From assembly GCA_021159235.1 (NCBI GenBank), contig JAGGSF010000109.1:1-10329 (forward strand): DNA of 10,329 nt, in the 5' to 3' direction. Positions 1 to 8,252 of the stretch are shown one piece after another. The notes below the pieces were generated by a model. It had not been told where the DNA came from. It made no database searches and was given only the letters and a program-made list of their open reading frames with translations. A program made the translations under genes and the position numbers. Each line of letters starts with the position of its first letter. Position 1 is the stretch's first letter. The stretch is from Deltaproteobacteria bacterium (GTDB taxonomy: Bacteria > Campylobacterota_A > Desulfurellia > JAGGSF01).

Positions 1-879
1 ATCCCACTTGTTTAAAACCACAATGAGGCACTTGTTTGATTTCTGGGTGTAAGATGCAATTTTTTTGTCTTCAGCTGTTACCCCTTCTTTTGCATCGACA
101 ACGAGAATGACAATATCTGCTCTATTTATGGATAGTATGCTTCGTAAGGTGCTGATCTTTTCTATATCTTTCTTTATTTTGCTTTTTCTTCTTAGACCTG
201 CCGTATCTATGAGAAGATATAATTCATTTTTATATTTAAATTCTGTATCTATGCTGTCGGTTGTGGTTCCGGGAAATGGACTTACATTGACCCTTTCCTC
301 ATTTAATATGGCGTTTACTATACTTGATTTCCCTACATTTGGTCTTCCTACCACCGCTATTTTTGCAGCGTGGGTCTTTTCTTTTCTTTCTCCTTCTTTA
401 GCAAATGAGAGTAGCTTTTCTTTCAAGAGGTCTATATTTTTTCTATGTGTTACGGATATAGGTATGATTTCACCAAATTTGTAATATTCATTGATATTTT
501 CTTGACTTTTCTTGGTATCTATCTTATTTGCAACCAGTAGAACAGGTTTATTGTATTTTCTCACCATCTCCATCAGTTCTTCATCTTCCTGAGTAGGGGA
601 TTGAGTGGCATCGAATAAAACGATTATTATATCTGCCCTTTCTAAACCTATGGATATTTGATTTAGGATGTAGGGAGAAAGCTCCATTTGTTTAGAAAAA
701 CCACCGGTATCTATAAACATGAAGTTTTTACCATTGATTTCCCCGTAATCAACAATCCTGTCCCTTGTGGTATGTGGTATGTTAATTACTATACTTTTCC
801 TTTTTCCTACCAGGAGGTTGAATAGAGAAGATTTTCCTACATTTGCTCTTCCTACGATGGCAACCTGAGGAACGCTCAT
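1..879 (-). CDS. der: Ribosome assembly GTPase Der (EngA), C-terminal part cut by window edge
   Basis: Double-GTPase that binds the 50S subunit and is needed for its maturation. The visible 293 codons contain two G domains in tandem, the hallmark of Der. Domain 1 has P-loop GRANVGKSS (residues 10-18), the switch threonines in HTTRD, DTGG (57-60) and NKID (118-121). Domain 2 has GRPNVGKSS (178-186), PGTTTDSID, DTAGLRRKSK (225-234) and NKWD at the very edge (290-293). The rest of domain 2 and the C-terminal KH-like domain lie beyond base 1. The start is the ATG at 879-877, which overlaps the stop codon of the upstream GH57 gene as ATGA, so translation is probably coupled. The domain 1 P-loop has Ala where most Der proteins have Pro. 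Identity is near certain from the paired motifs. Confidence 0.96.
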   Translation of the reverse strand, partial: MSVPQVAIVGRANVGKSSLFNLLVGKRKSIVINIPHTTRDRIVDYGEINGKNFMFIDTGGFSKQMELSPYILNQISIGLERADIIIVLFDATQSPTQEDEELMEMVRKYNKPVLLVANKIDTKKSQENINEYYKFGEIIPISVTHRKNIDLLKEKLLSFAKEGERKEKTHAAKIAVVGRPNVGKSSIVNAILNEERVNVSPFPGTTTDSIDTEFKYKNELYLLIDTAGLRRKSKIKKDIEKISTLRSILSINRADIVILVVDAKEGVTAEDKKIASYTQKSNKCLIVVLNKWD

Positions 880-2942
880 ACTATCCAATTCTCTTTTTCT
901 AATTCACTATCCGGAATAACTATCTGAATATATCCCCATTGAGGAAAACGCTCTTCTGTAGCCTTGCCTCTTATCTCCACAAATAATGTTACAATTTCTC
1001 TTTCTTTCAGGTTGAATGATTTTCTTTCTATGCCTATCTCTATTATTTCGCCCCTACATATCTTTATTCCCTCTTCTCCCTTGCTGATAAGTTTGTTTTC
1101 CTTACTGTAATGAAGGGTGGTAACCTTATCTTCTTCTACAATTATTCTATGTGTTTGGTCGTTGGTTAAGGTGATCTTCAGTATTTCTAAGCTGCGAAAA
1201 CAATCTATGCGCAGGTAAAGAAATTGTTCATCAAAACACCAGTAAATCTTTTTTATTGTCTTTTTTGAGGGATGCATTGTGGAGAGGATATCTTCGTATT
1301 CACCGGCGCCCAGCCATTCATAGTAGGAGGTAATTTTCCCATCGATTGTTGGAGTGATAAATGTAGCGGGTTTTTTCTGCGGTTCAATGAATGTTCTTAT
1401 TTTTTTTATAGGTTCATCTAAAACGGATGGGGGCGTTTTCGATGAAAAGAGATAGGCATTTTTCAAATGTATTCTGTATAGATTGTCGAACAAAAGATCC
1501 TGTTGCGAGCTATGTTCTGAACCATACCACCAGTTCCAATCGCTACCTTCAGCTATATATATTTCTCTTTCGCTCTGTTTTGATATTTCTTTCAGGTCTT
1601 CTTTCGTTTTCTTCAACAGTTCCCATGATTTATTGTCTTCTTCATCACCAATCCAGACCTTGAAATCTGCATTTATCCATGAACCAGGCCATATATCGTT
1701 GTTCAGGGGCAGGATTTCATCCTCGTGTTCTCGTAGATACTGGGATGGTGTGGTTAGGGTGATACTGTCATCCTCGTTTAGTCTCCTGTAAAGTAACTTG
1801 AGGAAGGGATAACCGTTTTTTCTGTAATATTCCCACGCGTTTTCTCCATCCAGTATAACACTTACTATAGGATTGTTGTTGCCGTTTGTTTTTCTCTTCA
1901 TGGTGCTTATGAAATCTTCTACTGCTCTTTCCTCATCCATTTGAGCATAGGTGAAGGCGATCTTATCGGACAACTCCGTATCTCTGAAGAAGATATAGAG
2001 AGGCAAGTCTTTATATTTGTAACATCTATAAGGTGTGGCTGAAGGAAGGGTGTGTTTTAATATTACATCACCTGTCATAATGAAGTTAAATCCCTCTTGA
2101 GCTACCATATTTAGCGTTTCATCACTAACTGAACCTTCAGAAGGCCACAAACCCTTTATTTTCCCATTCAGGAGTTTTTCTGCGAATATCTTGCCTTCTT
2201 TTATCTGTTTTCTTGCATCTTCTGGATGAGTGAAACGAGATGGTAGTTTGATATCTGGTGAGCAAATAGAGGCTATATTTGTGTCGATGAGCAGAGGAAG
2301 GATGGGATGATAGAATGGAGATGTTGTTATTTCAATTTTTCCTTCAGTAAACGCCTCTCTGTACAGAGGAATAATTCTTTTCATAATTTCCATCTGTTTG
2401 TTGTAGATGGTTTTTTTATCATCTTCTGTAAAGTTTCGGTCTTTAGTAATGAGACTTTTTATTTCTCTGTCTTTTCTTTTTGTGTATTCTCCAAACCATG
2501 CCAGGTTGAACAGTACTTCGATGTCCCTTATCTCCTGTATGGTAAAGCCAGAGGAAGAGATCACCCCCTTGGAGCTTTTAAGCAATTGTCTTTTTTTGTA
2601 CAGTTGACTATAGCGGGGAGATTCGGAAATTACTCGATGGTTAGCATAGAAAAAGTTGGAAATGATATATACCTTTTCTTCCTCATTCAAGGCTGATGTG
2701 TCTTTCAGCATCATTTCGTTCTGGATTTCTTTTACATTGTTGTGTGTATAGTCTTCTATTTGCTCTAATAATACAGGTGTAAGATTGAATGATACCTTCG
2801 CCTCTTCTTCTCTGGCAATCATCAACATATCGTAGTAGTCTTTTGCAGCATGTAATCTCACCCAGGGCATAAGATATGTATGTTCCCTGTCGTTTTTGTA
2901 ATATGGCTGATGCATGTGCCATACTATAAAAAGATAAATCAT
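876..2942 (-). CDS. Glycoside hydrolase family 57 (alpha-amylase / glucanotransferase-like)
   Basis: 688-residue enzyme with an N-terminal GH57 catalytic domain. Family regions are seen in order: HMHQPYY (9-15), TSPFYHPILP (207-216), GLWPSEGSVSDE (264-275, predicted nucleophile E269), FFRDTELSD (318-326, predicted acid/base D321) and ILDGENAWE (363-371). GH57 enzymes retain configuration on alpha-glucans, so glycogen or maltodextrin turnover is likely; amylase, glucanotransferase and branching enzyme cannot be separated by eye. Residues about 525-688 form a separate beta-rich module (IDGKITSYYEWLGAGEYED), possibly a DOMON/CBM9-like sugar-binding domain; this is inference. There is no signal peptide, so it is probably cytosolic. 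The ATG at 2942 was chosen because GH57 proteins begin just before HxHQP; an upstream ATG at 3053 would overlap the divergent gene. No Shine-Dalgarno sequence precedes the start. It is followed by der with a 4-base overlap. Confidence 0.9.
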   Translation of the reverse strand: MIYLFIVWHMHQPYYKNDREHTYLMPWVRLHAAKDYYDMLMIAREEEAKVSFNLTPVLLEQIEDYTHNNVKEIQNEMMLKDTSALNEEEKVYIISNFFYANHRVISESPRYSQLYKKRQLLKSSKGVISSSGFTIQEIRDIEVLFNLAWFGEYTKRKDREIKSLITKDRNFTEDDKKTIYNKQMEIMKRIIPLYREAFTEGKIEITTSPFYHPILPLLIDTNIASICSPDIKLPSRFTHPEDARKQIKEGKIFAEKLLNGKIKGLWPSEGSVSDETLNMVAQEGFNFIMTGDVILKHTLPSATPYRCYKYKDLPLYIFFRDTELSDKIAFTYAQMDEERAVEDFISTMKRKTNGNNNPIVSVILDGENAWEYYRKNGYPFLKLLYRRLNEDDSITLTTPSQYLREHEDEILPLNNDIWPGSWINADFKVWIGDEEDNKSWELLKKTKEDLKEISKQSEREIYIAEGSDWNWWYGSEHSSQQDLLFDNLYRIHLKNAYLFSSKTPPSVLDEPIKKIRTFIEPQKKPATFITPTIDGKITSYYEWLGAGEYEDILSTMHPSKKTIKKIYWCFDEQFLYLRIDCFRSLEILKITLTNDQTHRIIVEEDKVTTLHYSKENKLISKGEEGIKICRGEIIEIGIERKSFNLKEREIVTLFVEIRGKATEERFPQWGYIQIVIPDSELEKENWIV

Positions 2943-2949
2943 GGGGTCA

Positions 2950-2977
2950 ATTATATTGCAATTGCTTGAGAAAACAA
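2950..2977 (-). promoter_or_regulatory. Sigma70-type promoter for the GH57-der unit
   Basis: Reading leftward, the -35 is TTGTTT (2977-2972), then a 16-base spacer, then a perfect -10 TATAAT (2955-2950). Only seven bases separate the -10 from the ATG at 2942, so the predicted transcription start falls at or next to the start codon. No Shine-Dalgarno sequence fits in that space, which suggests a leaderless mRNA. Its -35 directly abuts the -35 of the opposing promoter. Confidence 0.6.
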
Positions 2978-2994
2978 GATATGTTTGATATAAT
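2966..2994 (+). promoter_or_regulatory. Extended -10 sigma70-type promoter for the ferredoxin-pur-hemL-atp series
   Basis: The -35 is TTGAGA (2966-2971), followed by a 17-base spacer and a perfect -10 TATAAT (2989-2994) preceded by TGA (2986-2988), an extended -10. Five bases after the -10 comes the ATG at 3000, so the predicted transcription start is on or beside the start codon and the transcript would be leaderless. The 8-base palindrome GCAATTGC (2958-2965) lies just upstream and could be an operator; that is only a guess. Confidence 0.7.
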
Positions 2995-2999
2995 TTAGT

Positions 3000-4058
3000 A
3001 TGCAGATCTTTAATGCTTCTTCTTGTGGAGATGTGAAGATCAATGAAAATCATTGTGCAAGGCTCCTTTTTGCACGCAGCAGGTGTGATGATTGCATGAG
3101 ATCATGTCCACAGGACGCTATATCGTTTTCTACAAGAGAGTATAAAGTAGCCAGGGATTGTAATGGATGCGGTATATGTTATTCCGCCTGCAGGACAGGG
3201 GCAATAAAGCTGAGTGATAATCTGGATGAGGTTGTTTTAAATAAGATATTGAAGGAGGCAAAAAGGAAAAAAGTGCGTTTTTTGTGCAGTAAGGCAAAAG
3301 CGGACGAAGATTCATATAATGTGGTTTTGTCCTGTATTAGCAGATTAACGGAAAATGTTTTATTTAGACTCATTAAAACAGGATTTGAGGTAGAGATAGT
3401 TAAGGGTGAATGCAGCGGCTGTGAATATGAAAAGAGTTTGTTTGTTTTTGAGAGGAATATGAACTTCTTAGAGGATATTCTTTCTTCTTTTAACATTAAA
3501 GAAAGGCCTGTTATTAAGCAGGAAATAGCCGAAAAGGAAATAGAAAAAGAAGAGTCTCCACGCCGGGAATTTTTTAGGATGTTTGCCAAGCCCATAAGGG
3601 ATATGCGGGCAGAAAAACCCAGGAGACTGTTCTTTATGGATTTAATTCAAGGGCCTTTGTCTGAAAGAGAAACAGATTTTCTATTGAATATATCTATAAA
3701 TGATAACTGTAATCTGTGTGGTGCATGTGTTTTTGTCTGTCCTACGAAGGCCATCACTGTAGAAAAAGACGATATAAAAGGTGTAATATATTTTTCTCCT
3801 TCCCTGTGCGTAGGTTGCAGGAATTGTATAGATGTTTGTATGAAAGAAGCGGTGAAGGGAGAAAGGGGAAATATGGTGTTGTTGAACAGAGATACGGTAA
3901 AATTAAAGGAGCTAAATAGACAGGTGTGTACGCATTGTGGCACCGTTTTTTACTCTGCGGGTGAAAAAGAGTTGTGTGATATATGTAAAATGAGGAAAGA
4001 GAAAGAAGATGCCTTGTTTGCTTCCTGGGAAGAGCAGAGGAGGAAAAATGACAGATAG
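3000..4058 (+). CDS. Four-cluster polyferredoxin with Cys-rich middle domain
   Basis: 352-residue iron-sulfur protein, presumably a cytosolic electron carrier or adaptor; partner unknown. N-terminal ferredoxin pair: cluster one from C19 plus C29-C32-C36P (RCDDCMRSCP), cluster two C54-C57-C60-C64 (CNGCGICYSAC). Middle domain (about 90-160) has single Cys residues in FLCSK, LSCISRL and GECSGC, and resembles from memory the MvhD/FlpD-like or thiol-rich segments of similar ferredoxins. A charged linker contains SPRREFFRMFAK (187-198). C-terminal ferredoxin pair: C237-C240-C243-C247P and C270-C273-C276-C280. A final CTHC (310-313) and CDIC (326-329) look like a zinc ribbon. The ATG at 3000 sits five bases after the -10 and has no ribosome site. 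A GTG at 3033 is the alternative start, but its GGAG is only two bases away. It overlaps the next gene by 11 bases. Confidence 0.82.
   Translation: MQIFNASSCGDVKINENHCARLLFARSRCDDCMRSCPQDAISFSTREYKVARDCNGCGICYSACRTGAIKLSDNLDEVVLNKILKEAKRKKVRFLCSKAKADEDSYNVVLSCISRLTENVLFRLIKTGFEVEIVKGECSGCEYEKSLFVFERNMNFLEDILSSFNIKERPVIKQEIAEKEIEKEESPRREFFRMFAKPIRDMRAEKPRRLFFMDLIQGPLSERETDFLLNISINDNCNLCGACVFVCPTKAITVEKDDIKGVIYFSPSLCVGCRNCIDVCMKEAVKGERGNMVLLNRDTVKLKELNRQVCTHCGTVFYSAGEKELCDICKMRKEKEDALFASWEEQRRKNDR
4038..4043 (+). promoter_or_regulatory. Ribosome binding site fixing the start of the CBS/DHH gene
   Basis: AGGAGG, a full Shine-Dalgarno match, lies four bases before the ATG at 4048. It favours this start over the in-frame ATG at 4009, which would add 13 residues with no family resemblance ahead of the DHH motif. 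Confidence 0.75.
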
Positions 4059-5334
4059 GGTCTTTGTTATTGGACGAAAAAATCCTGATACAGATGGGAT
4101 TGCATCTGTTATCGGTTATGCTCACCTGAAGAATAAGATTACAGGGGAAGACAGGTATGTTCCAGTTACGGCAGGATTGTTAGAAGTGAGAACGATGAAG
4201 ATTTTGGATTTTCTGCTAATAAAATATCCTCCACTTATGGAGGATTTGAATCTTCATGTTTCAGATATTATGGCGAAAAGGGTGATTGTAGCTCCTTTAG
4301 GTACCCCTATTGTAGAGGTATTTAAGATCATGGTTAAGGAGGATATTCGTGTTGTTCCAGTTGTAGATAATGAAAACCGGTTTTTTGGATTGGTGGGTTT
4401 TATCGATATTGCTAAGAAGAGTATATCTACCGTTGTTCCTGATGTATTCAGGAGGGTGAAAACAAGTATCGAGTTGATGTCGAGGTCTGTATCTGGTGAT
4501 GTAGTGAATAGTGTGGATGGAGGTGAGGAATTTATAGCTAATATTATGGTGGTTGCTACCAGTGCGGAAAGATTTTGTTCTGATATAGATACATTTGATG
4601 CGAGAGGAGTGGTAGCCGTGGTAGGAGACAGGGAGGATGTGCAAAGGGTGGCTATTGAAAAAAGGGTAAGATGCCTGGTGATATGTGATGGTTATGAGTT
4701 GAGTGAGGAGTTGCTTGAACTTGCAAGGAAAAATGAGGTTTCTGTGATTTATTCTCCCTATGGTGCTTGTACCACGGTTGGTTTGATTGAATGGAGCACG
4801 CCTGTTTATACAATTGCCAACAAGGGTGAGAGCGTAGCGAGACAGGGAGAAAGGGTAAATGATATAAGGGAGAGAATGCTTACCTCTCCCAATCGTGCCC
4901 TACCTGTGATTGATGAAAAAACGGGGAAGGTTTTGGGAATAATCACACGCACAGATCTCGCTAAGCATGTTGCAAGAAGGGTTATTTTAATTGATCATTC
5001 GGATACGCTTAATGCACCGGAGGGTATATTCAGCTGTGTTGTTGAGGAAATTATTGATCATCATCGATTTGGTGATATAAGATTAAAGGAGGCAGCCCGA
5101 ATAAGGACAGAGCCCTGGGGCAGTACATCGGCTATCGTAGCGGACGAATATATGAAGCATAATTTAAAACCGGAGAGGAAGATTGCTCTCCTTCTGGCAG
5201 CTGGAATAATGATAAATACAGAATTTTTTGAGAAAGCTACCACCACAGAAAAGGACAAGGAAATGTTTGAATGGCTTATGGATATAAGCGGGGAGGATAA
5301 GGAGAGCTTTATTTCACGCATTAAAAATTTATAG
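4048..5334 (+). CDS. Degenerate CBS-DRTGG-DHH protein, pyrophosphatase-like, DHHA2 domain absent
   Basis: 428-residue relative of family II (Mn-dependent) inorganic pyrophosphatases with a regulatory insert. Order: first DHH segment with GRKNPDTDG (9-17); CBS 1 (about 70-125, VSDIMAKRVIVAPLGT); DRTGG-like region (about 135-248); CBS 2 (about 250-308, ending GIITRTDLAKH); second DHH segment with ILIDHSD (313-319), IIDHHRF (335-341) and AAGIMINTEFFEKATTTEKD (384-403). It ends at about residue 428, where the linker to DHHA2 would begin; purC follows after 8 bases, leaving no room for that domain. Two metal ligands of the family are changed: the first-motif His is R10 and the last-motif Asp is N390. 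D14, D16, D316, H338 and H339 remain. Pyrophosphatase activity is unlikely. CBS domains in this family bind adenine nucleotides, so a sensor or regulator role is inferred. Confidence 0.85.
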   Translation: MTDRVFVIGRKNPDTDGIASVIGYAHLKNKITGEDRYVPVTAGLLEVRTMKILDFLLIKYPPLMEDLNLHVSDIMAKRVIVAPLGTPIVEVFKIMVKEDIRVVPVVDNENRFFGLVGFIDIAKKSISTVVPDVFRRVKTSIELMSRSVSGDVVNSVDGGEEFIANIMVVATSAERFCSDIDTFDARGVVAVVGDREDVQRVAIEKRVRCLVICDGYELSEELLELARKNEVSVIYSPYGACTTVGLIEWSTPVYTIANKGESVARQGERVNDIRERMLTSPNRALPVIDEKTGKVLGIITRTDLAKHVARRVILIDHSDTLNAPEGIFSCVVEEIIDHHRFGDIRLKEAARIRTEPWGSTSAIVADEYMKHNLKPERKIALLLAAGIMINTEFFEKATTTEKDKEMFEWLMDISGEDKESFISRIKNL

Positions 5335-5342
5335 GGGTATTG

Positions 5343-6047
5343 ATGAAGCAGGTATATGAAGGAAAAGCAAAGATTCTTTATGAGACGGAAGACCCCGGGT
5401 TTCTAATTATGCACTTCAAGGATGATGCTACAGCATTCAACGGGAAGAAATTTGCTATAATAAAAGATAAGGGACGCTTGAATAAGGAGATAACTACCAT
5501 TACTTTTGGCTGGTTGGAAAAAGCGGGTATTGACACACACTTTGTAAGGGATATATCGCAAAATGAGATCCTGGTAAGAAAGGTGAAGATTATACCGCTG
5601 GAAGTTGTGGTGAGAAATGTTGTTGCAGGTTCTTTGTCTAAGCGAATGGGTTTAAAGAAGGGCGAGAAACTGAAATTTCCCATTGTTGAATTTTATTACA
5701 AAAGTGATGAACTGGATGATCCTATGCTGAATGAATATCATATTCGAGTATTTGATATAGCAGACGAAGAAACAATTGAAAAGATGAAAGAAATTGCCTT
5801 TTGTGTTAATGATTTGCTAAAGAAAAAATTTGAGCAAGCAGGTATTTTACTGGTGGATTTTAAAATTGAATTTGGCAAAGATGAAAATGGAAAACTCATA
5901 CTGGCAGATGAGGTTACACCGGATGGAACAAGATTGTGGGATATGAAAACAGGAGAGGTGCTGGATAAAGATAGATTTAGATTTGACCTGGGTGATTTGA
6001 TAGAGGGGTATGAGAAGATTTTAGAGAGAATAAGGTGCGTTTCGTAG
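5343..6047 (+). CDS. purC: Phosphoribosylaminoimidazole-succinocarboxamide synthase (SAICAR synthetase)
   Basis: Joins CAIR and aspartate with ATP hydrolysis to form SAICAR in de novo purine synthesis; cytosolic. At 234 residues it has the normal bacterial length. Seen: VYEGKAKILYET (4-15) at the ATP site, the family signature PLEVVVRNVVAGS (85-97), the second signature LLVDFKIEFG (169-178), DEVTPDGTRLWD (189-200) and FRFDLGD (212-218). The ATG at 5343 is preferred over the TTG directly before it because AGGGG (5333-5337) is five bases upstream. It follows the CBS/DHH gene by 8 bases, and purS starts inside its last codons (13-base overlap), so the genes are almost certainly co-transcribed. 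Confidence 0.97.
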   Translation: MKQVYEGKAKILYETEDPGFLIMHFKDDATAFNGKKFAIIKDKGRLNKEITTITFGWLEKAGIDTHFVRDISQNEILVRKVKIIPLEVVVRNVVAGSLSKRMGLKKGEKLKFPIVEFYYKSDELDDPMLNEYHIRVFDIADEETIEKMKEIAFCVNDLLKKKFEQAGILLVDFKIEFGKDENGKLILADEVTPDGTRLWDMKTGEVLDKDRFRFDLGDLIEGYEKILERIRCVS

Positions 6048-6271
6048 TGCTGGTAAAGCTGAAACAGGGGATACTGGATCCGCAGGGAAAAGCGATAAAG
6101 AAGGTTATAGAAAGAAGAGGGGAAGATAGAATTAAGGATATAAGGGTGGGGAAGTATTTTGAAATAGAGGTGGAAGAGTCAAATAAGATAGAGGCTCAGA
6201 AGATAGTGGAAAAGGTAGCCAAAGACACCCTTTCCAATCCCATCATAGAGACGGTTGATATAATACAATGA
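6035..6271 (+). CDS. purS: Phosphoribosylformylglycinamidine synthase subunit PurS
   Basis: Small 78-residue subunit of the three-part FGAM synthase (PurS-PurQ-PurL), where it bridges PurQ and PurL and helps channel ammonia. Family features: the beta strand FVVLVKLKQGILDPQGKAI (3-21), the helix KKVIERRG, IRVGKYFEIEVEE (36-48), and the C-terminal LSNPIIETVDI. The start is a GTG at 6035, inside the 3' end of purC; the frame has no ATG upstream that preserves the family N-terminus. Its TGA overlaps the purQ ATG as ATGA. The low-efficiency GTG start and both overlaps point to translational coupling with purC and purQ. Confidence 0.95.
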   Translation: MRFVVLVKLKQGILDPQGKAIKKVIERRGEDRIKDIRVGKYFEIEVEESNKIEAQKIVEKVAKDTLSNPIIETVDIIQ

Positions 6272-6960
6272 AGGTGGGTATTGTTGTTTTTCCTGGAACA
6301 AACTGTGACAGGGATGTTTTCTGGTCTGTGAAACTACTGGGTGGGGAACCCATATACATCTGGCATGAGGAAGAAGATGTAAGGGATGTAGATTGTATTA
6401 TATTGCCAGGTGGTTTTTCTTATGGGGATTACCTTAGGCCTGGAGGATTGGCTAAGTTTTCAAAGATAATGGATAAAGTAGCTCTATTTGCGGATGAGGG
6501 GAAACCTGTTATAGGTATATGTAATGGTTTTCAGATTTTATGTGAATCGGGACTCCTTCCTGGCGTCCTTATGAAAAATGAAAATATGCGTTTTATATGC
6601 AGGGATATATATGTAAAGGTTGAAGAAAGTAGATGTGTGTTTACAAAGGATATTGAGGGTAAGGTATTGAAGATGCCCATTGCTCATAAGGAGGGAAATT
6701 TTTGGTGTGATGATGAGACATATGAAAGGATGAAGGAAAATGGGCAGATTGTTTTCAGGTATTCTACATCCAGTGGTGAAGTAAAGGATGAGGCAAATCC
6801 CAATGGTTCGCTGCATAATATTGCGGGAGTATGTAATACTAAGGGGAATATTTTAGGCATGATGCCTCACCCTGAGAGAGCTTGTGAGAAGCTTTTGGGT
6901 AGTCTGGATGGAAGAAAGATTCTAAATTTCGTCAAGGAGAAAAGATGGGCAAGAAGATGA
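6268..6960 (+). CDS. purQ: Phosphoribosylformylglycinamidine synthase subunit PurQ (glutaminase)
   Basis: Class I glutamine amidotransferase subunit of FGAM synthase: it hydrolyses glutamine and passes ammonia to PurL. The protein is 230 residues. Start motif VVFPGTNCDRD (6-16), oxyanion loop LPGGFSYGDYLRPGG (46-60), nucleophile C85 in GICNGFQ, MPIAHKEG (136-143), and catalytic H201 and E203 in MMPHPER. It overlaps purS by 4 bases and hemL by 16. The large subunit gene purL is not in the window, so the three-part enzyme is encoded at two or more loci in this genome. Confidence 0.97.
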   Translation: MKVGIVVFPGTNCDRDVFWSVKLLGGEPIYIWHEEEDVRDVDCIILPGGFSYGDYLRPGGLAKFSKIMDKVALFADEGKPVIGICNGFQILCESGLLPGVLMKNENMRFICRDIYVKVEESRCVFTKDIEGKVLKMPIAHKEGNFWCDDETYERMKENGQIVFRYSTSSGEVKDEANPNGSLHNIAGVCNTKGNILGMMPHPERACEKLLGSLDGRKILNFVKEKRWARR

Positions 6961-8252
6961 GCAAGGTGGCATTTTCAGAGGCAGAGAGGTACATCGCGGG
7001 TGGAGTTGACAGCCCGGTGAGAGCATTTAAAGCGGTGGGTGGAGATCCACTATTTATTCAGAAGGGAAAGGGTAGCAGGATTTATGATATAGATGGCAAT
7101 GAATACATAGATTATGTGGGTAGTTGGGGACCTGCTATTTTAGGTCATGCACCGGAGGAGGTAATAGATGCAGTGAAAAGGGTTACGGAACAAGGCTTGA
7201 GTTTCGGTGCACCTACAATACTGGAAACAGAATTGGCAAAGAGGGTTATAGAAGCTATCCCTTCCATTGAAAGGGTGAGGTTTGTGAGTTCCGGTACAGA
7301 AGCGACGATGAGTGCTTTAAGACTGGCCAGAGGATTTACAGGGAGAGAGAATATCGTGAAGTTTTCAGGATGCTATCATGGACATGTGGATTCTATGCTG
7401 GTGGAGGCAGGTTCTGGTGCAACAACCTTTGGAAGTCCTACCAGCCTGGGCATTCCACAGGATTTTGCTCGTCATACCATTGTTCTCCCATATAATGATA
7501 TAGATGCCTGCTATAATGTTTTTAAAGAGAAGGGAAATACTATTGCCTGTGTTATTGTTGAACCGGTAGCTGGTAATATGGGAACGGTTTTGCCAGGTGA
7601 GAATTTTTTGGGTGATTTGAAAGAGATCACCTTGAAGTATAAGAGTATACTCATATTTGATGAGGTTTTAACGGGATTCAGGATCACCTATGGTGGTTAT
7701 CAAAATCTGATAGGGGTAAAACCTGATCTTACATGCTTGGGGAAGGTGATAGGTGGGGGAATGCCGGTAGCTCTTTATGGAGGGAAAGAAGAGATTATGA
7801 GTCTTGTTTCTCCTCAAGGTGATGTTTATCAAGCAGGGACCCTGTCTGGAAATCCTCTGGCCATGATTTCAGGGATCAAAACCCTGGATATTTTGAAGAG
7901 AGAAAAACCTTATGTTTATCTCCATCAAACAACAGAGGAGCTGGCTTTAGGGTTGGAGGAAGAAGCAAAGAGAGCTGACCTGCCTGCTAAGGCCAGCTTT
8001 ATAGGTTCCATGTTTACACTGTTTTTCTCTGATAAAAGGCCTGAGAATTTTGATATGGTTAAGAGATGCGATACATCTTTGTTTTCACAGTATTTTAATG
8101 GTATGCTAAAAAATGGTGTATATCTTCCCCCATCCCAGTTTGAAACAAATTTCGTATCCTGTACCCATACTAAAGATGATATTAGAAGAACGATTGATGC
8201 TTCAAGGGAGGTATTTAAAGATATCAAAAGACAAAAGAGATTTTTATCGTAA
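6945..8252 (+). CDS. hemL: Glutamate-1-semialdehyde 2,1-aminomutase
   Basis: PLP enzyme turning glutamate-1-semialdehyde into 5-aminolevulinate in the C5 route to haem, sirohaem and corrinoids. 435 residues, the usual length. Seen: GGVDSPVRAFKAVGG (19-33), SSGTEATMSALRLARG (115-130), GCYHGHVDS (142-150), IFDEVLTGFR (237-246), and the predicted PLP-binding K267 in CLGKVIGGGMP, then AGTLSGNP. AGGAG at 6935-6939, five bases before the ATG, supports the 6945 start inside the end of purQ. Its 3' end is overlapped by the atpZ-like gene. No haem gene neighbours it, so its link to the pur and atp genes is positional only. Confidence 0.97.
   Translation: MGKKMSKVAFSEAERYIAGGVDSPVRAFKAVGGDPLFIQKGKGSRIYDIDGNEYIDYVGSWGPAILGHAPEEVIDAVKRVTEQGLSFGAPTILETELAKRVIEAIPSIERVRFVSSGTEATMSALRLARGFTGRENIVKFSGCYHGHVDSMLVEAGSGATTFGSPTSLGIPQDFARHTIVLPYNDIDACYNVFKEKGNTIACVIVEPVAGNMGTVLPGENFLGDLKEITLKYKSILIFDEVLTGFRITYGGYQNLIGVKPDLTCLGKVIGGGMPVALYGGKEEIMSLVSPQGDVYQAGTLSGNPLAMISGIKTLDILKREKPYVYLHQTTEELALGLEEEAKRADLPAKASFIGSMFTLFFSDKRPENFDMVKRCDTSLFSQYFNGMLKNGVYLPPSQFETNFVSCTHTKDDIRRTIDASREVFKDIKRQKRFLS

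Follow-up and report, generated by a model that had tools for sequence, protein, structure and literature searches.

What is a pyrophosphatase-like protein kept for when it lacks the DHHA2 domain and two metal ligands of its family? The question is raised by a gene in a 10,329-nucleotide stretch of DNA (the window), which is one entire contig (C40) of a 1.13 Mb genome, rated 100% complete, from the sulfur-reducing class Desulfurellia. A first-pass annotation had proposed that the encoded protein lost pyrophosphatase activity and either became a nucleotide-responsive regulator or acts on a different phosphoester. Our analysis points to a probable regulatory role and not an enzymatic one. Our preferred reading, to which we assign a probability of about 0.6, is that it is a pseudoenzyme, a dead CBS-pyrophosphatase retained as a soluble sensor of adenine nucleotides in the service of the cellular economy of pyrophosphate.

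Results

The gene (4048..5334, forward strand) was defined by its reading frame, Pfam and 22 orthologues, and encodes a 428-residue CBS-pyrophosphatase paralogue that has no DHHA2 and is predicted to be catalytically dead (here, the short form). AGGAGG at 4038..4043 on the same strand, 4 nt 5' of the ATG, reads as the likely ribosome-binding site, and the stop codon is TAG (5332-5334). Pfam gave the layout DHH-CBS-DRTGG-CBS-DHH, with the DHH pieces spanning residues 4-387, all encoded on the forward strand. The first DHH segment (residues about 1-66; 4048..4245) holds motif 1, GRKNPDTD, where R10 (codon CGA, 4075..4077, in VIGRKNPDTD) replaces the metal-ligand His in the alignment. It is followed by CBS1 (residues 71-124; 4258..4419), whose nucleotide motif is degenerate (G or D for S/T), the Pfam-assigned DRTGG domain (residues 147-248; 4486..4791) and CBS2 (residues about 250-310; 4795..4977), with an invariant GxxTRTD and R283. 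The second DHH segment (residues 311-428; 4978..5331) carries the DHS, DHH and INT motifs and stops at the DHH domain boundary; in it N390 (codon AAT, 5215..5217, in IMINTEFF) replaces, again by alignment, the metal-ligand Asp.

A Pfam scan found neither DHHA2 nor DHHA1 in the 428 residues. Frame, codons and Pfam thus bore out each detail first noted for this protein (R10, N390, the missing DHHA2 and a purC gene 8 bases on), and the DHHA2 substrate ligands Lys/Arg/Lys, which were not on that list, are gone as well. There is no DHHA2 domain anywhere in the window's genome and therefore no split partner for the short form; a separate DHHA2 protein completing the enzyme was ruled out on this ground. 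Against NF011443, a diphosphatase equivalog with a curated cut-off of 335 bits, the window protein scored 312.4 bits, below the cut-off, and two of three orthologues scored also fell under it. The third (L050 6402-7697), at 337.8 bits, would be named a manganese-dependent diphosphatase despite having no DHHA2.

Viewed in isolation, a protein with a domain and ligands missing might come from a decaying gene or an assembly error. We found an orthologue in 22 of the 25 genomes of Desulfurellia, spread over three families and including single-contig genomes, with 43-48% identity between the window's protein and those outside its genus. Within the window's genus, three separately assembled genomes carry the gene (89-90% identity); in the two besides the window's it has the same genes around it, and the contigs are 38 and 61 kb long. 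The end position is shared by all 22 orthologues (428-434 aa counted from the conserved start), as are the R and N substitutions, and dN/dS lies far below 1: 0.02-0.17 across orthologue pairs, being 0.02-0.11 in most and 0.17 in G001-G002. In the window-G002 comparison the short form gave 0.10, close to purC (0.083) and hemL (0.087). The first-pass view that this is not simple decay therefore holds, and the agreement of all 22 orthologues, the three separate assemblies of the genus among them, speaks against an assembly error having removed DHHA2. We give either artefact practically no weight.

We next considered whether the altered site could still be catalytic. We aligned the 22 short forms with 40 full-length relatives, of which 13 belong to Desulfurellia and the remainder to many families. 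All 22 short forms had R in motif 1 and N in motif 4, where all 40 relatives had H and D. D14, D16, D316, D337, H338 and H339 were invariant in both groups. The modelled active site of the Shewanella pyrophosphatase comprises His8, Asp12, Asp14, Asp72, Asp93, His94, His95, Asp146, Lys203, Arg293 and Lys294 (PMC13219714). Going by motif position, the short form has lost five of the eleven: His8 and Asp146 by substitution, and Lys203, Arg293 and Lys294 with DHHA2. At residue 318 the DHN motif reads DHS in all 22 short forms (N in 37 of the 40 full-length relatives); this residue may correspond to the conserved Asn312 of the D. hafniense enzyme, whose Ala variant reversed the effect of ATP (PMC10742508).

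An AlphaFold2 model built on the 22-row alignment (pLDDT 89, pTM 0.74) was aligned to known structures (3l31/3l2b, 1wpn), which confirmed a DHH domain interrupted by CBS-DRTGG-CBS. Model residues 3-428 paired with residues 2-187 of the B. subtilis pyrophosphatase, its DHH domain (Z about 29, 1.5-1.6 A, 184 residues), and residues 66-303 matched the regulatory region of the nucleotide-bound C. perfringens CBS-pyrophosphatase (structure with AMP and Ap4A; Z 22.8). The last residue, L428, paired with B. subtilis residue 187, the end of that DHH domain. The short form thus ends at the DHH boundary, and the loss of DHHA2 is therefore clean. The R/N pair in 22/22 orthologues, the end of the fold and the low dN/dS together lend good support to the proposed loss of pyrophosphatase activity under continued purifying selection, and the short form almost certainly does not hydrolyse PPi.

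To our knowledge, no DHH phosphoesterase works without a lid, either DHHA1 or DHHA2. A phosphoesterase with a different substrate and a reduced metal site, the second of the early proposals, would make sense of the six DHH-domain active-site residues that stay invariant, DHH itself included. It would have to work without the His8 and Asp146 equivalents and the Lys/Arg/Lys of DHHA2, five of the eleven Shewanella pyrophosphatase residues (PMC13219714), and with no lid of either kind found by Pfam in a protein that ends at its DHH domain. The proposal gained no support, and we consider it improbable. Somewhat less improbable, although still doubtful, is that the metal-poor DHH site senses PPi or phosphate, with R10 holding the anion in the metal's place and the CBS pair serving as a second input. 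R10 is invariant, and with its positive charge where a metal was lost it could bind phosphate. R351 is likewise invariant, and such a role would suit a gene that in relatives lies beside hppA (below); the main PPi-binding Lys and Arg residues of DHHA2 are, however, missing.

The short forms made up one clade in our tree (support 100/100, stem 0.94), with the class's full-length paralogues grouping apart. Descent from the class's own full-length paralogue was unsupported, the short clade not being nested within it and standing on a stem of that length. No short form was found outside the class in a search of 386 genomes; relatives turned up in 20 outside genomes, where every open frame measured 536-607 aa. 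A contig search with the single protein reached one relative that was close, besides distant ones, several of the latter covered only partly. A single clade on a long stem, with only full-length relatives in the 20 outside genomes, marks the short form as an ancient paralogue peculiar to this class. Its descent has been chiefly vertical, and the window's family branches as sister to the two others.

A full-length paralogue co-occurs with the short form in 13 of the 22 genomes; the other nine, the window's included, are without any DHHA2 protein. Where both are present, the short form could enter hetero-tetramers with its full-length relative and tune it, and the DHH and CBS contacts through which the family assembles (PMC10742508) would permit this. 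The nine genomes mean that it cannot be the general role. Completeness falls short in some of them, but three score high (the window's 100%, G004 and G008 99%), and we think a hetero-tetramer very improbable as an explanation of the short form, a shade more so than an altered enzyme.

The sensor reading depends on the CBS pair, whose residues we assigned by alignment to the D. hafniense and C. perfringens positions examined in PMC11172384. The fold of the pair is present (Z 17-18 to AcuB). CBS2 keeps the G, T and D of G-h-h-T-x-x-D and R283 in 22/22 short forms; CBS1 has lost the S/T of G-h-h-S/T-x-x-D/N in 22/22, and at the position of D. hafniense Lys100 12/22 have R and 10/22 a hydrophobic residue. 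An engineered D. hafniense CBS-pyrophosphatase without DHHA2 has no activity, forms a tetramer and still binds both an AMP analogue and Ap4A (PMC10742508). Because the short form has the same domains, we would expect it to be an inactive nucleotide-binding tetramer. By this analogy it likely binds adenine nucleotides, although the altered CBS1/Lys100 site may give it a different ligand preference or weak binding. The early suggestion of a nucleotide-responsive regulator is thus the best surviving reading, favoured by the CBS2 motif and the engineered analogue and qualified by the lost CBS1 S/T.

We then compared gene neighbourhoods. In the two other families with the short-form gene (f3 and f4), it is followed in 19/19 genomes, on the same strand, by hppA, which encodes a proton-pumping membrane H+-pyrophosphatase and whose ATG lies 13-21 bp past the short-form stop with a purine-rich ribosome-binding site in the gap. 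After hppA there usually come purC, purS, purQ, hemL and ATP synthase genes. On the 5' side the neighbour varies repeatedly from genus to genus while the hppA pairing stays. The pairing is not universal among carriers, being found in 0/3 genomes of the window's genus, where hppA is missing from the slot, the short-form gene abuts purC and a polyferredoxin gene lies upstream. In the window, purC (5343..6047, forward strand) begins with an ATG 8 bp past the short-form stop, and hppA intervenes before the pur genes in other families. The rest of the conserved cluster, purS, purQ and hemL and then ATP synthase genes, follows at 6035..8252 on the same strand (names from sequence and order). Family f2 (L090) retains hppA-purC-purS-purQ behind tRNA-synthetase-like genes and has neither a short nor a full-length CBS-pyrophosphatase. 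The gene kept without hppA in the window's genus and hppA kept without the gene in f2 limit how firmly the two can be tied.

The polyferredoxin gene (3000..4058, forward strand), whose 3' end overlaps the start of the short-form gene by 11 bp, stands beside it only in the window's genus; relatives occur in most of the class but are located elsewhere. The context first described accordingly needs amending: the polyferredoxin neighbour is genus-specific, and hppA, which across the class usually accompanies the gene, is absent from the window, this genus having apparently lost it from the operon. In the polyferredoxin, two ferredoxin blocks flank a stretch with weak likeness to FlpD, and the C terminus is zinc-ribbon-like with CxxC-CxxC; its relatives elsewhere in the class show 30-39% identity, and the copy in G013 is broken by a stop. 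The first ATG (3053) of the GH57 frame at 876-3053 overlaps the polyferredoxin start. Because the L083 orthologue begins near the window's MIYLFIVWHMHQPYY, the true GH57 start is probably about 2942.

Retention beside purC without hppA in the window's genus, at a dN/dS of about 0.10, is what one would expect if the sensor targeted another product of the cluster, PurC/PurS/PurQ or ATP synthase, and adjacency to hppA were merely an old neighbourhood. Against this, hppA is the sole neighbour kept in all 19 f3 and f4 genomes: the pur genes do not directly follow hppA in f4, and in G013 all genes beyond hppA differ and yet the short-form gene-hppA pair is kept. A target elsewhere in the cluster is therefore unlikely, although it deserves more weight than a PPi sensor.

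The membrane pyrophosphatase of the window's genus lies outside the short-form operon, split over contig ends C1 and C35 in G000 and whole in G002 (loci: L086 7966-9972; L084 1-1809; G000:C1:39908-40048). It is about 45% identical to the operon type, whereas operon types are 66-77% identical among the other families; it carries GNTTAA where the rest of the class has GNTTKA; and it falls in a separate clade (SH-aLRT 99-100). In membrane pyrophosphatases, A at that position marks K+-dependent and K marks K+-independent enzymes (PMC10897367). Vertical descent from operon hppA was rejected on these three differences. Because identity, cation-site type and clade all differ, operon hppA appears to have been lost in the window's genus, with an unrelated membrane pyrophosphatase type serving instead. 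Identities and dN/dS gave no clear sign of relaxed selection on the short form after this loss. A second, partial membrane pyrophosphatase at G013:C88:2-1387 possibly reflects a mixed assembly or a second type. No family I soluble pyrophosphatase was found in the class. With neither DHHA2 nor a family I enzyme, the membrane pyrophosphatase is the only recognisable pyrophosphatase in the window's genome, and the second full-length pyrophosphatase that the first-pass annotation had thought worth seeking is not there.

Discussion

We propose that an old paralogue of the CBS-domain family II pyrophosphatase has lost DHHA2 along with two metal ligands and survives as a sensor. The protein would form a tetramer through its CBS and DHH parts, bind adenine nucleotides at the CBS pair, mainly via CBS2, and shift shape between AMP/ADP and ATP/Ap4A states, and the dead DHH platform would relay the nucleotide state to a partner protein. 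The likeliest partner would be the membrane pyrophosphatase, whose PPi consumption and proton pumping would then track energy charge; in the window's genus it would be the replacement membrane pyrophosphatase or another product of the retained operon. Gene order makes the membrane pyrophosphatase our leading candidate target, held at less than even odds. Slightly more tentative is the full proposal of a dedicated cytoplasmic regulator of a membrane-bound H+-pyrophosphatase, derived from a soluble CBS-pyrophosphatase and coupling PPi-driven proton pumping to adenylate energy charge. We found no description of a natural DHHA2-less CBS-pyrophosphatase, and no protein regulator of prokaryotic membrane pyrophosphatases or hppA, among the open-access papers that we searched.

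Derived from CBS-pyrophosphatases but short of two metal ligands and DHHA2, and in the window's case scoring below the curated cut-off, the short form does not merit the name pyrophosphatase, although its mode of action may well resemble that of such an enzyme's regulatory half. One orthologue just over the diphosphatase cut-off indicates that such proteins risk being listed as active pyrophosphatases. With sensor and enzyme apart, the short form could allow work on CBS signalling free of catalysis, and it offers a testable candidate for tying membrane pyrophosphatase to energy charge.

Loss of catalysis on a DHH fold has a precedent in CDC45, an inactive relative of the DHH nuclease RecJ that was kept as a protein part. 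Like the short form it is a non-catalytic DHH phosphoesterase fold; unlike it, CDC45 is RecJ-related, has no CBS or DRTGG domain and serves in replication. The DHH-DHHA1 phosphodiesterases (GdpP, NrnA) differ in having DHHA1, which is absent from the short form. Closer in proposed mode of action is AcuB of Bacilli, a stand-alone CBS energy sensor that binds and inhibits its operon partner AcuC when AMP-bound (PMC13121692). Both have a CBS pair, which binds adenine nucleotides in AcuB and probably does so in the short form (the short-form CBS superposes on AcuB with Z 17.7), no enzyme of their own and an operon partner, putative for the short form, but AcuB belongs to a different family, with an ACT domain where the short form has DHH, and acts on AcuC. 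Closest in architecture are the CBS-pyrophosphatases of C. perfringens and D. hafniense, which share the DHH domain split by the same insert and the same fold of both parts; the short form differs in lacking DHHA2 (with SRKKQ and the substrate Lys/Arg), the motif 1 His and the motif 4 Asp, in its altered CBS1 and in DHS for DHN. The engineered DHHA2-less D. hafniense protein (PMC10742508) has the same domain content but keeps its metal ligands, whereas the short form is natural, conserved and R/N-substituted. The short form may thus be seen as the natural counterpart, kept across a bacterial class, of a laboratory construct built to ask how CBS domains control a pyrophosphatase.
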